A stretch of DNA of 54,386 bases from positions 1 through 54,386 of the IMG/VR virus record IMGVR_UViG_3300045738_001741; one strand, 5' to 3'. The notes below the pieces were generated by a model. It did no database searches. It was not told the origin of the DNA and saw only the letters and a list, made by a program, of their open reading frames with translations. Made by a program: the position numbers and the translations under genes. Shown piece by piece: positions 10,601 through 54,303 of the stretch. Within the stretch, counting starts at the first letter, position 1. Every line of letters starts with the position of its first letter. Source of the DNA: a virus.

Positions 10601-10800
10601 TCCCTTGGCTGGTTAGTGGGACTTTACGCCCCATTTGGGAGCTACTTAGGCCGTGCCTCAAAGCATCCGCCCTCTGTGCAAGTAGGTTCATCCCCTTTTT
10701 ACGTTGCACCATCCGCACAGGCAGGTTCAACATATTTTTTGAAGACTAAAGACCACGCCAAGGATAGTTATATAGAATATATTAACACAAATATTGATGC
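10601..10800. other. Gap with two imperfect 35-base repeats, no convincing gene
   Basis: About 200 bases between two terminators. It holds two diverged copies of a motif around GCAGGTTCA/GTAGGTTCA (near 10675-10700 and 10712-10735). A plus-strand frame of 75 codons with a GTG start spans them (10616-10843) and the repeats translate as PSVQVGS and PSAQAGS. There is no ribosome site and its frame runs through a terminator, so I do not call it a gene. Confidence 0.4.
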
Positions 10801-10840
10801 AAAGAACAGGCTCAGTCTTAAAAGACCTAACCTGTTCTTT
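10801..10840 (-). terminator. Terminator-like hairpin after the DNA methyltransferase gene
   Basis: AAAGAACAGG and CCTGTTCTTT form a perfect 10-base-pair stem, and an inner TCTT/AAGA pair extends it. The stop codon of the methyltransferase gene lies within it. The T run after it is short, so termination may be partial; the stronger terminator at 10558-10600 lies further on. Confidence 0.55.
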
Positions 10841-11648
10841 TAAGTCTTTCTTCTGAAACTTCTATGTTTTCATCTAAAAGATCAATGCCAACATATTTTC
10901 GTTGCATTCTCTTAGCCACAACTGCTGTAGTCCCTGAACCTAAAAAAGGGTCAAGAACAACATCGCCTTCCTTTGTAAACAATTTAATGAACCATTCAGG
11001 CAAACTTTCAGGAAAAGCTGCGCTATGCTTCCTATTGGAACATTCTGTAGCTAGATGAAGCACATTTGTGGGGTAAACCATGTCACGCCCAACCCAATTA
11101 GAGACATTCTTTCCAAAACCTGACTGAACCTTCGATGGATCACGTTTTTTGTCTGTTTCACTTAGATTCTTCAGACGAGATTTAGACCAATCTCCCACTG
11201 GAACCATCACTTCCTCCTGATACATGTCAAACTTCTTTTCCTTGTTAAATTGAAGCGCTCTTTCCCAAGAATCCCTGAATCTATTCGGCCATTTGCCAGG
11301 AAAACAATTCTTTTTGCACCAAATATACTCTTCCGTCCACAACCAACCTTGAGATCGCATATTTTGGATTAAATCTAAAACATAAGTGTGCCTTTCACCA
11401 GAAACCACCTTCTCCTTGATGTTTATAATGAAAGTCCCCTTGGGCTTCAAAACTCGTTGAAGCTCCTCCGAAATTGGCAGAAACCACTCAACATACTTAT
11501 CAGGGCTTACACCACCATAAGTATTCTTGCGATTATCGGCATACGGGGGCGATGTGACTATAAGCTGAAAAAAATCATTATCATAATTATGCAATACATC
11601 CTTGCAGTTCCCCTTAATAATCGCATCTATCGGATTTCTAATTGTCAA
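10827..11648 (-). CDS. DNA methyltransferase, N4-cytosine/N6-adenine type
   Basis: A 273-residue modification enzyme with catalytic motif TSPPY (32-36) near the N-terminus and the SAM-binding motif DPFLGSGTTAVVAKR near 230, the order of beta-class enzymes. No restriction endonuclease is adjacent, so it looks like an orphan methyltransferase, useful for evading host restriction or for regulation. The TTG start overlaps the stop of the upstream glycosyltransferase gene as TTGA, suggesting translational coupling. SPPY alone does not decide between cytosine and adenine. Confidence 0.88.
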   Translation of the reverse strand: MTIRNPIDAIIKGNCKDVLHNYDNDFFQLIVTSPPYADNRKNTYGGVSPDKYVEWFLPISEELQRVLKPKGTFIINIKEKVVSGERHTYVLDLIQNMRSQGWLWTEEYIWCKKNCFPGKWPNRFRDSWERALQFNKEKKFDMYQEEVMVPVGDWSKSRLKNLSETDKKRDPSKVQSGFGKNVSNWVGRDMVYPTNVLHLATECSNRKHSAAFPESLPEWFIKLFTKEGDVVLDPFLGSGTTAVVAKRMQRKYVGIDLLDENIEVSEERLKRTG

Positions 11649-23630: not shown

Positions 23631-24425
23631 ATGTTCAGCCACAAGGTGTTGATGTGTAGACCTTCTCACTACAACATTTGTTATACAATCAACCCTTGGA
23701 TGGATATAACCAATGAGGCTGAATATCTGCCATCCCAGAATGAGTGGCAAACATTACATCACACTATAATTCGTTTAGGCGGTTGGGTTGAATATGTCGA
23801 TCCCCAGCCCGGTTTTCCAGATATGGTGTTTACCGCTAATGCCGGTCTTATCTACAAAAACAAATGTGTAGTGTCTAATTTCAAGTTTTTAGAAAGACAG
23901 GGAGAGGAAGCACATTATCAACATCGTTTAGATCAATTTTACGAAACACTACGACTTTCCAAGGAGCTACATTTTGAAGGTGCTGGTGATGCACTTTTTG
24001 CAGGAGATGTATTATTCGCAGGATATGGTTTCAGAAGTGACATAGAAGCCATTGATGAAGTGGCGGATATGTTGGATGTGAATGAGGTTGTGAAATGTCA
24101 ATTAATTGATTCTAGATTCTATCATCTGGATACTTGTTTCTGCCCTCTTAACGATAAGCAAGCGATATACTTTCCAGGCGCATTCCCCAATGAAACTATA
24201 GAAATTATGAAGGATCATCTGGAGATGATAGAAGTTTTAGAGGAAGATGCTGTAAAATTTGCTTGTAATGCAGTTGTCTTGGGAGAAAATATAATCATTC
24301 CAGAAGGTTGCGAAAACACTAAAAGATTATTACAAGACTTGGGTTTTGATGTTTATTCATGTAGAATGAATGAGTATATCAAGGCAGGCGGTGCCTGCAA
24401 GTGCCTTACTTTGCAATTGGTGTAA
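23631..24425 (+). CDS. Amidinotransferase-fold hydrolase (DDAH/arginine-hydrolase-like)
   Basis: A 264-residue protein of the dimethylargininase/arginine hydrolase group. PDMVFTANAGL (about 64-74) and FEGAGDALFAGD (about 115-126) belong to the active-site region. FYHLDTCFCPL carries the catalytic histidine. KAGGACKCLTLQ near the end holds the catalytic cysteine. Enzymes of this fold act on the guanidine group of arginine derivatives, giving citrulline or ornithine plus ammonia. Exact substrate not decidable. It lies between pyrB and a phosphatase gene. Confidence 0.8.
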   Translation: MFSHKVLMCRPSHYNICYTINPWMDITNEAEYLPSQNEWQTLHHTIIRLGGWVEYVDPQPGFPDMVFTANAGLIYKNKCVVSNFKFLERQGEEAHYQHRLDQFYETLRLSKELHFEGAGDALFAGDVLFAGYGFRSDIEAIDEVADMLDVNEVVKCQLIDSRFYHLDTCFCPLNDKQAIYFPGAFPNETIEIMKDHLEMIEVLEEDAVKFACNAVVLGENIIIPEGCENTKRLLQDLGFDVYSCRMNEYIKAGGACKCLTLQLV

Positions 24426-30069: not shown

Positions 30070-30097
30070 TTTACAAGGATAAGAATCGTAGTATAAT
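30070..30097 (+). promoter_or_regulatory. Sigma-70-type promoter
   Basis: TTTACA and TATAAT with 16 bases between. It lies just upstream of the gene at 30115. The spacing and -35 match those at 52697 and 53018, suggesting a shared promoter class. Confidence 0.6.
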
Positions 30098-30114: not shown

Positions 30115-30798
30115 ATGAAATTCAATGAATTCATTGACGGAAGAGATGACCCAATAAGGCGTTACGTCACTTGGTTGGCAGATCGATACGACGAAACCCT
30201 AGAAGAAGCGGCACGTCGCTCGCTGGGGCGGGTTATGAAATTGGTCAAAGAAGCCGTAGACCCACAGGCGTTGATAACAGCCTTCCGGGGGGATACACTT
30301 TTTGAGAACCGTAGGAAGAACAAGGAACTTGAAGCCGACATACGTGGCAATCATTGGGGATTCATTCCTGTTCTGGGTGGTTATATCGAAAAGGTCAAGG
30401 ATGATGAAGGAGAAGAAACTGGAGAACACAGACAAGTCGAAGATGAGGAATCTTTCTTCGTTGTTGGCAAGGGAGAAGGGCCAGAATTTCGCAATAAGGT
30501 TCTAGAATTGGTCGTCAAGTACGACCAAGAATCTGCGGCCATCAAATACCCAGGCGACAACAGAGGTTTCTTACTTGAGGCCAATGGCAATGAGTTTCCA
30601 TTGGGGGTATGGAGCCAGAATAAAATGGCCCAATACTACACCAAGATGAAGATGGGCGCAAAAGATCGGCAATTTGCATTTGAGCAGGAATCTGACGGGT
30701 CGGAATCTGACGGCCCACAGTTTGAATTCTTTGCAGCAGGCGATTCCAGTCGATCAACTCGGATGGCTGTTGATCGATTTGTAGAAACTGGAGAATGA
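30115..30798 (+). CDS. Unknown protein with capsid-targeting-like N-terminus
   Basis: A 227-residue protein beginning MKFNEFIDGRDDPIRRY, with GGAGAAAAG before the ATG. The centre has acidic and basic helices; near residue 200 a short repeat of E-S-D-G-S-E-S-D-G occurs. No known domain. It has its own promoter and sits directly before the tRNA gene, which is on the other strand. Confidence 0.6.
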   Translation: MKFNEFIDGRDDPIRRYVTWLADRYDETLEEAARRSLGRVMKLVKEAVDPQALITAFRGDTLFENRRKNKELEADIRGNHWGFIPVLGGYIEKVKDDEGEETGEHRQVEDEESFFVVGKGEGPEFRNKVLELVVKYDQESAAIKYPGDNRGFLLEANGNEFPLGVWSQNKMAQYYTKMKMGAKDRQFAFEQESDGSESDGPQFEFFAAGDSSRSTRMAVDRFVETGE

Positions 30799-49978: not shown

Positions 49979-51157
49979 TTATATCGACCACATTAATTGT
50001 TTACCGGCCTCGGTTGACAGAAGATTTGGATCAGGCGTGATCTTTACCCGTGGCAAATCTAGCCTATCGGCATCCCAACATGCCCCAATGGTTGGATCGT
50101 TTGATATTTGTCCATCGTTGTGAAACTTACATGCTTCGATTAGAAGATTGAGTTGGGCATCATTGATCTTCAAAACCCCACACGACTTTAATTGGTTCAC
50201 AAAATCGGCTGCTCTATGCCCGTGCTTAGGATCGTCATTTTCATTTTCTCGCTTGCAATCGTGGGTCAAAGCAAACAATTGGCAAACAGTAATGTCAGCG
50301 CCAGGGACTTTCTTGGCAAGTTTCAAGGCGTGTCGTTCAACTTGTTGCCAATGCCACCAACCGTGGTGTGAATTATGGCTGAGCTTGAATTCTTTCATGG
50401 CCAAAGCCTTAACATTTTTGATCCAGTCTGGCCGCTTGATGTCTCGTATGTTTTTGAATGTGAATCTATCTTCACAAAAATCTGGAACTATAATAATTTC
50501 GTACTCGCCTCGTCCCAAAAGCACACCATAGATGTCCTTTTTATCAACAATGCCTCTGGCCACCCAACCTTTGCCTTTGTGGGCAAATCTTTTGGCGAAC
50601 CAGCGGGCACGCCAATAATTCAAAGTCCAGGAGAAGCCAATTCGATTGTGTTGTTGGTGTCCTCGATAGACAGCAATTTTATCTGGTAGCGAATCCATAA
50701 AGGATCGTTCCTCTTCGTCCATTATAAACTCTCGGTGTGGCCGACCGCATTCTAGCAAGCTTATAGCTTCATCTTCGTATTGCCACATGTTCTCGGTATC
50801 GATCCAGCAATCACCCACTAATCCCCAGAATACTTTGTCGTCTTCAATTTCATCGACCCATTCCAATAGTTTGTCAATGCGGTAAGGTCGTTCATACATG
50901 AAGAGCGCTCCGGCATAATTGCCTGCGGTGAGTTTTTCTTCTACATACGCCTTCTTGTGAACGTATTGTTGGTTGTAAAAGGCATTCATATGTTCGAAGT
51001 ATGGCACGCCAAAAACCAAAGGATGTTTTAAGCACTCGCACTCTCCAAATAAGCCTCCTTCTCTTCCGGCATCGAGGTATAGTTGTAAGTCTTCATGCAG
51101 CGGCTCCTGCCGCTGCATGGTCTCTTCAAGCGAGGCTAACGATTCGGATTTGGTCAT
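49979..51157 (-). CDS. Fusion of ADP-ribosyltransferase-like and HD-hydrolase-like domains
   Basis: A 392-residue protein. Residues 160-225 read like the catalytic core of an R-S-E type ADP-ribosyltransferase: AVYRGH (R165), GFSWTL (S176), then GRGEYEIII with E218-x-E220. Residues 258-370 contain HHGWWHW, THD (H299, D300), H312/H314 and WDADRLDL, the order of an HD metal-dependent phosphohydrolase. The N-terminal 155 residues are unknown. Both assignments rest on motif order only. The start overlaps the neighbour stop as ATGA. Confidence 0.6.
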   Translation of the reverse strand: MTKSESLASLEETMQRQEPLHEDLQLYLDAGREGGLFGECECLKHPLVFGVPYFEHMNAFYNQQYVHKKAYVEEKLTAGNYAGALFMYERPYRIDKLLEWVDEIEDDKVFWGLVGDCWIDTENMWQYEDEAISLLECGRPHREFIMDEEERSFMDSLPDKIAVYRGHQQHNRIGFSWTLNYWRARWFAKRFAHKGKGWVARGIVDKKDIYGVLLGRGEYEIIIVPDFCEDRFTFKNIRDIKRPDWIKNVKALAMKEFKLSHNSHHGWWHWQQVERHALKLAKKVPGADITVCQLFALTHDCKRENENDDPKHGHRAADFVNQLKSCGVLKINDAQLNLLIEACKFHNDGQISNDPTIGACWDADRLDLPRVKITPDPNLLSTEAGKQLMWSI

Positions 51158-52660: not shown

Positions 52661-52675
52661 TTTTCATCCTTATTA

Positions 52676-52687
52676 TCCCCACGGGAA
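52676..52687 (-). promoter_or_regulatory. Operator-like inverted repeat, copy 1
   Basis: TCCCC-AC-GGGAA lies just downstream of the copy 1 -10 box, over the expected transcription start. Copy 2 (52998-53009) is TTCCC-AC-GGGAA. Confidence 0.45.
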
Positions 52688-52696
52688 TTATCATTC

Positions 52697-52724
52697 ATTG
52701 TACTACGATTTTTGTGATTGTAAA
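52697..52724 (-). promoter_or_regulatory. Sigma-70-type promoter, copy 1
   Basis: TTTACA and TACAAT with 16 bases between, followed by the operator-like repeat and the gene at 52660. It is one of two nearly identical promoter units in this gap. Confidence 0.6.
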
Positions 52725-52733
52725 TCAGAAAGA

Positions 52734-53011
52734 AGCACCGACTAGTCCGACTAGTCGGTGCTCCCCTGTTGACTCCGTGGTTTGGGCGAATAAGGCCAAC
52801 GACTTATTCAGGAGCTTTCGGCATGATTTCAATACCGGCCATCCTTGACATCATTTGGATAAACTTCCCATGATACTCACGGTTTATCACCACATGCTCT
52901 GACGCTTTGGCCTGACTTTACCCCCGCCTCCCCAGTATGGGTTTCTGGGGCAGGAATGATGTGACCAGGAACAAGTGGGTGTTCCAGCAACCCGTTATTC
53001 CCACGGGAACC
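52734..53011 (-). ncRNA. Candidate structured non-coding RNA
   Basis: Bounded on the minus strand by promoter copy 2 and a 13-base-pair terminator hairpin (AGCACCGACTAGT/ACTAGTCGGTGCT, 52734-52762) followed by TTCTTTCT. Three more hairpins lie inside: GGAACA/TGTTCC (52968-52985), CCCCAG/CTGGGG (52930-52950) and GAATAAG/CTTATTC (52788-52809). The only frame is about 30 codons (52804-52893, GTG start, no ribosome site). A small peptide is the alternative. No match to a known RNA family recognised. Confidence 0.55.
52998..53009 (-). promoter_or_regulatory. Operator-like inverted repeat, copy 2
   Basis: TTCCC-AC-GGGAA, a perfect 5-base inverted repeat, at the expected transcription start of promoter copy 2. 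Confidence 0.45.
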
Positions 53012-53017
53012 ATCGCC

Positions 53018-53045
53018 ACTATACCACGATTTTTGTGGTTGTAAA
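53018..53045 (-). promoter_or_regulatory. Sigma-70-type promoter, copy 2
   Basis: TTTACA and TATAGT with 16 bases between. The surrounding sequence, from the -35 box through the inverted repeat, is a diverged duplicate of the unit at 52673-52725. It would drive the candidate RNA. Confidence 0.6.
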
Positions 53046-53061
53046 GTGAGAAAAGACACCG

Positions 53062-54303
53062 CTAACCAATAATTTCGCTAAGTTGCCTTTTGATTTCAGC
53101 AAGTCGATTGGTGGCTTCTGCGAGTCGCTGTTGACCGATCACCATCTCGTTCTTGTATCGCTCGAAATTGTTGTTCTCATCGGTCAAAGCCGTTTCAAAA
53201 AGTTCCAACATTTCCCTCGCCTCATCTACTTCTTTCGATTTAGCGGTAATGGAATCCCTGAAACCGGCGTTGTCGCTTTCCATCTGAGATTGCTCGTTGG
53301 AGAGAGTTTCAATTTTCGTAGTCAGTTTGTCATGTTCTTCAAGAAGGGGCTGGAGTTGTCCGAGACGTTGTTGAACCTTACCCAGTATTGCACCATTTTC
53401 CACTTGGTTGCTTTCCTGAATGGGTTTAAAAACTTTAGCCTGAATGGGATCGGGCATCAAATCTCGCATCCCACGCAGTCGATCTCGACCCGCAGGAGTG
53501 ATGAGATACCCTTTTGTTGTTGGTGAACTTCCATTTCGGCATGGGTACATCCAGCGAGATACCCAGCCCAGTTTTACGAGACCCCTGATGATAACAGCAG
53601 CCGCTTTGTTGGGCACATTGTACTGCGGATGTACCTCGCAAAAACCATTCAGATCGAGTTCATCGATGATGGTGCTAATTGCCAATTTACGGAGTACACC
53701 ACCATCAGGGTCAAGCACCGCAGATATCGCACAGAGGGCGTGAGTGAGGGCTGTGCCGTTATTGCCAAGCCCAATGACCCGCAGAGGCTCCAGGGCCAAA
53801 GAGGGCTTTACAGGGGCTTCTGGAAGCTCTGGCGTGATTTCGGAAACAGCTTTAATTGGTGGTTCTGGAGTGGTTTCTTCATTATTATCATCATCACCAT
53901 CATCACCATCGAATTCGTATGTTGGTGGTGCTGTAATGCGAATACCACCAGTATCCAGTGGTTCGTTCCGAATTACTGGAATGGTAATTAAATTTTGAGG
54001 GTGAACGCCTCGTAGGTCATCCATAACCGCCTGCACGGGATGTCCGGGTGGTGGTGTTAAAATGCAATCAAAAGCGGTATCATTTCCGCCGTATTTGATG
54101 CGAATGTGTATGCCACCGCCCTTGCGTTTAACGAGTTGGAACTTTATGTTGCCCTTTTTCCGAGTTTGGCGAATCATCGCCAAAGTCCAAACGCCAGAAT
54201 AACCAAGCCCAGTTAGGACTGACTTGAGCAATCCGTGAGTGGGCTTGACATGATTTTGACATTTGTTGGGAAAGCGGGCGATTTCGATTTCAAGTGTCGC
54301 CAT
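53062..54303 (-). CDS. Unknown protein with winged-helix-like part and coiled coil
   Basis: A 413-residue protein. The N-terminal 110 residues look globular; an acidic D/E/P linker follows (about 130-165). Residues 170-290 contain helix-turn-helix-like stretches (STIIDELDLNGFCEVH, KGYLITPAGRDRLRGMRDL). Residues 300-413 are a long coiled coil. It might be a DNA-binding or structural scaffold protein. No family recognised. It is followed by the candidate RNA unit. Confidence 0.6.
   Translation of the reverse strand: MATLEIEIARFPNKCQNHVKPTHGLLKSVLTGLGYSGVWTLAMIRQTRKKGNIKFQLVKRKGGGIHIRIKYGGNDTAFDCILTPPPGHPVQAVMDDLRGVHPQNLITIPVIRNEPLDTGGIRITAPPTYEFDGDDGDDDNNEETTPEPPIKAVSEITPELPEAPVKPSLALEPLRVIGLGNNGTALTHALCAISAVLDPDGGVLRKLAISTIIDELDLNGFCEVHPQYNVPNKAAAVIIRGLVKLGWVSRWMYPCRNGSSPTTKGYLITPAGRDRLRGMRDLMPDPIQAKVFKPIQESNQVENGAILGKVQQRLGQLQPLLEEHDKLTTKIETLSNEQSQMESDNAGFRDSITAKSKEVDEAREMLELFETALTDENNNFERYKNEMVIGQQRLAEATNRLAEIKRQLSEIIG

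Follow-up and report, generated by a model that had tools for sequence, protein, structure and literature searches.

A candidate early small RNA unit running from a duplicated promoter to a terminator-like hairpin in a virus record

Few small RNAs have been described in virulent phages, most of them without a known role. The virulent Pseudomonas phage PAK_P3 has two, sRNA1 and sRNA2, which are intergenic non-coding transcripts of about 100 nt, seen by RNA-seq as late transcripts and with no known function (PMC4933390). Further virulent-phage RNAs of unknown role, detected experimentally, are mentioned in the same paper. Temperate phages provide better-known examples, including the OOP RNA of phage lambda, a short RNA gene with its own promoter (PMC12197685). 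The locus described here appears comparable in kind to both sets (PMC4933390, PMC12197685). Like sRNA1 and sRNA2, it would give a small intergenic non-coding RNA in a virulent phage; it differs in that the RNA is predicted only, is about 280 nt long and is probably early. The further RNAs mentioned in that paper resemble it in kind. Since so few virulent-phage small RNAs are known, a clean promoter-to-terminator unit makes a testable candidate.

The window, meaning the whole stretch of DNA analyzed, is a virus record of 54,386 bases. Its replication and nucleotide genes include helicases, a UvsX-like recombinase, a DnaB-like helicase, a DNA polymerase and an SbcC-like protein, and it further encodes an adenosylcobalamin-dependent ribonucleotide reductase and a CTP synthase. 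The window shares synteny with G009, a record of 245,522 bases: positions 1-49 kb match G009 141-196 kb, and most genes encode proteins that are 40 to 80 percent identical. Among the nine related records compared, none had a counterpart of the right-hand 5 kb of the window, which holds the interval of interest. As for the host, one helicase relative was found in a Neisseriaceae MAG contig, too little to name it. Elsewhere, window positions 23631-24425 encode a dimethylargininase/arginine dihydrolase-like protein with homologues in G009 and in another record, G001, and ARAGORN called a tmRNA with the tag DKTNFAMAA in G009 (L049 11581-11937, minus strand).

Two closely similar promoters lie on the minus strand near the right-hand end of the window. 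P1 (53018-53045) has the form TTTACA-N15-G-TATAGT with a 16-nt spacer, and its near-copy P2 (52697-52724), TTTACA-N15-G-TACAAT, is placed to drive the following operon. The two units align over 51-52 nt with a single gap. A third promoter of the same class, P3 (30070-30097, plus strand), lies upstream of a predicted S-adenosylmethionine lyase gene (30115-30798; Pfam PF23780, just above the cut-off), 17 nt from its start codon. The 28-nt pattern TTTACAN8AATCGTRGTAYART has three matches in the window where 0.02 are expected, the pattern having been derived from its own matched sites, of which the third, at 30070, is independent. P1, P2 and P3 have the promoter core and the AATCGT spacer in common; the inverted repeat discussed below is not part of what they share.

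The syntenic record supports this class. At spacings of 14-18 nt, G009 contains seven TTTACA/TAYART pairs, and every one of them has a spacing of exactly 16 nt and a G before the -10 element. All seven lie upstream of an ORF, six within the scanned stretch and the seventh 143 nt before a 584-aa gene, too long for the ORF scan used. One gene is preceded by three of these seven in tandem. Among more distant relatives matches are sporadic: 7 of 50 records have one each, and a reversed-pattern control has three. The class TTTACA-N15-G-TAYART is thus supported for the two syntenic records that share it, the window and G009, and not for the wider group. These promoters are probably read by a host sigma-70-type RNA polymerase and are probably early. 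S-adenosylmethionine lyases typically have an early anti-restriction function. As a mark of likely early genes in an uncultured large-phage group, the promoter class may be more useful than the RNA candidate. An intergenic small RNA of a phage is expected to have its own promoter, and P1 is a predicted promoter of a class that comparison supports. It is also the sole class site in the window and G009 without a well-supported ORF downstream.

At the other end of the interval is a terminator-like hairpin (52734-52762, minus strand) with 13 perfect base pairs and a 3-nt loop, followed by TCTTTCTGATTT. It is the strongest hairpin in the window. Four perfect hairpins of at least 11 bp occur in the 54 kb, while 0.03 are expected per simulated window. 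The tail on the minus-strand side is U-rich but broken (UCUUUCUGAUUU), with no clean U-run, and a terminator scan of the window did not list this hairpin. Its end and the -35 element of P2 are 9 nt apart, and a hairpin directly before a promoter is positioned as at a unit boundary. An earlier note on this DNA had described twin promoters, a perfect 13-bp hairpin just before the downstream one, and a unit bounded by promoter and terminator. Both promoters are present on the minus strand, as TTTACA-16-TATAGT (53045-53018) and TTTACA-16-TACAAT (52724-52697), and the hairpin is there too, far above chance in simulation. The bounded unit is likewise supported, its promoters by comparison with the syntenic G009. 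Separately, a perfect 11-bp hairpin (CATGCAGCGGCTCCTGCCGCTGCATG) lies at 51094-51119, near the start of the gene at 49979-51157.

Our preferred reading, at a probability of roughly 0.55 for the explanation as a whole, is that this large phage has a small transcription unit here, short, probably non-coding and probably early, which runs from P1 to the 13-bp hairpin, with P2 as a duplicated promoter that restarts transcription. From P1, an RNA would begin near 53011 and finish at the hairpin (52762-52734), giving a predicted transcript of about 280 nt (52734-53011, minus strand) that most likely stays untranslated. P2, within the duplicated copy of the promoter block, would restart transcription for the next operon, 9 nt beyond the hairpin. 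A strong promoter of its own, a strong stop hairpin and no good protein frame together point to a probable small RNA. Sequence and comparison show the class of promoter, its duplication, the hairpin and the absence of any convincing frame, while transcription of the interval, its timing, its termination and its function are inferred. If functional, the small RNA would most likely act early in infection, by base pairing or by binding a protein.

The earlier note had also called the RNA structured and had listed three more perfect hairpins. Those hairpins are present on the minus strand: GGAACA...TGTTCC (52968-52985; 6 bp, 6-nt loop), CCCCAG...CTGGGG (52930-52950; 6 bp, 9-nt loop) and GAATAAG...CTTATTC (52788-52809; 7 bp, 8-nt loop), the last absent from the minimum-energy fold. 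With 0.57 expected in simulations, this is a mild enrichment (p about 0.012, post hoc and with four overlapping solutions counted). Folding energy does not support structure beyond the terminator, because z against shuffles is -3.06 with the terminator and drops to chance, -0.34, without it; the folding excess comes from the terminator. The GC content of the interval is 0.51 to 0.52, compared with 0.41 for the window (97th percentile of 249-nt windows).

Searches for relatives of the interval were negative. The only Rfam match at gathering score in the window was a tRNA elsewhere, and below threshold there were chance-level matches only. No relative was found in 65 related virus records or in collection scans, and there is thus no sign of selection on the interval. 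Short DNA matches in related records (14 to 29 nt) were scattered and were discounted; the best, 22 nt in G015, falls in the ribonucleotide reductase region, on the opposite strand, and was put down to chance. The OOP RNA of lambda has its own terminator and is antisense to cII, whereas the interval is antisense to no recognized gene. We rejected an OOP-like antisense RNA on that ground and because, when pairing was computed against 51 start regions of the window, none stood out (best z -2.1). CsrA was considered as a partner, given several GGA motifs in the interval, and was dropped, as there is no csrA in the window and there are two in G009.

Whether the interval codes for protein bears on two other explanations. 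It may be a present or recent small protein gene that passes from a frame A to a frame B by a one-base shift, be it frameshifted or decayed, the result of a sequencing error, or read by programmed frameshifting; taken together we regard these variants as unlikely. Frame A (TTG at 52990, 37 codons) and frame B (up to 37 codons, ending at 52804) were chosen after looking, and both are weakly coding-like, with scores that fall among those of real genes and rank with the highest 2 to 4 percent of off-frame open stretches. Compared with shuffles, the best single coding segment has p 0.19, while a path allowed one frame change gives p between 0.014 and 0.19, according to the penalty applied. All other class promoters in the window and G009 precede an ORF, which also speaks for a gene here. 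Against it, neither frame is preceded by a Shine-Dalgarno sequence, and for the 37-aa frame and the joined 65-aa frame no homologue turned up in phages, in viral contigs or among related records. No frame in the interval combines a ribosome binding site with codon bias, so the earlier assertion that there is no convincing frame stands in that respect and has to be qualified by the weak frameshifted signal in A and B. A non-coding product is favored on these sequence measures. The only frame with a Shine-Dalgarno sequence (TTG at 52832, 35 codons, AGGA upstream) crosses the whole 13-bp hairpin and stops just after it. This layout would suit an attenuator: P1 would serve the P2 operon as an auxiliary promoter, and the 280-nt leader and its hairpin would be conditionally read through, by antitermination or by translation of the 35-codon frame. 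Both units are driven by the same promoter, and the three tandem class promoters before one G009 gene are also in keeping with this. In a pyrBI-type attenuator leader, a promoter, a leader frame and a terminator hairpin come before the gene. The interval differs in having a second promoter after the hairpin and a leader frame without coding bias, and no alternative antiterminator fold was identified. Since P2 restarts transcription right after the hairpin, attenuation would be largely redundant, and we find this explanation improbable.

The other alternatives turn on an inverted repeat, TTCCCGTGGGAA (52998-53009, minus strand), which is located close to where transcription from P1 is expected to begin and has perfect 5+5 arms around a 2-nt center. 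In the full model of the earlier note, a structured regulatory RNA is co-repressed with the next operon through a TTCCC-GT-GGGAA operator at both promoters. In both copies the repeat does sit close to the predicted start of transcription, the two agree at 11 of 12 bases, and the hairpins are mildly enriched. Only the upstream copy is perfect, however; the downstream one, in the leader of the P2 gene (52676-52687, minus strand), reads TTCCCGTGGGGA, where a single substitution breaks the symmetry. The repeat is absent at P3 and at the G009 class promoters, several class promoters are followed by unrelated short inverted repeats, and near-matches elsewhere in the window are at chance (21, with 25 expected). 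Nor is the repeat clearly better conserved than the remainder of the duplicated promoter block, and once the terminator is left out the folding is no better than chance. A regulon with twin operators requires the same symmetric, enriched operator at both sites, and we rejected it because the repeat is perfect at P1 only and is not enriched in the window. An operator role for TTCCCGTGGGAA is therefore not supported, nor is the idea of one repressor for the RNA and the next operon, and we hold the co-repression model to be very improbable. Duplicated promoters also occur elsewhere in the group (the three in tandem in G009), so the twin arrangement alone implies no shared repressor; duplication of the promoter block explains it, and under our preferred reading of a non-coding unit the block would carry the inverted repeat along passively. 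One could also imagine that the early RNA pairs with the leader of the next operon near its ribosome binding site, through the nearly identical, self-complementary UUCCCGUGGGAA, so that the twin element would act between RNAs and not as a DNA operator. This assumes an abundant early phage RNA that could carry UUCCCGUGGGAA at its 5' end, and we consider it a long shot.

The first gene after P2 (52313-52660, minus strand) has the Shine-Dalgarno sequence AAGGA and encodes a 115-aa protein of no known family. Upstream of P1, also on the minus strand, is a gene for a 413-aa protein (53062-54303), which was judged by eye to be winged-helix-like in its middle and a coiled coil at its C-terminus. Transcription of this gene could also enter the interval, because no terminator lies between them. 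The 413-aa protein had no match in the phage collection, and no loci for it or for the 115-aa and 384-aa neighbor proteins were found in viral contigs. It has distant homologues in three phage contigs (G022, G026 and G031); these were set aside as related loci, as the open frames around the homologues are other genes in a different neighborhood.

Two further structures were seen in G009. Its csrA homologues, both above the Pfam cut-off, are at L044 5529-5762 (plus strand) and 10710-10868 (minus strand). After the first of them, a 111-nt stretch (L044 5795-5905, plus strand) has z -2.3 against shuffles and an outer stem that ends in UUUUU, and it is a possible terminator or small RNA. The leader after the class promoter at G009:53092, which precedes the 584-aa gene (L046 12921-13066, minus strand), contains two tandem stem-loop units, GGCAAAAGCAGTTCCTATAAAA...TTTTACTGCTCGCC and GGCATAAAGAGTTCCTATAAAA...TTTTTACTCTTCGCC. 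Their stems differ and still pair, with z -1.7 for the pair.
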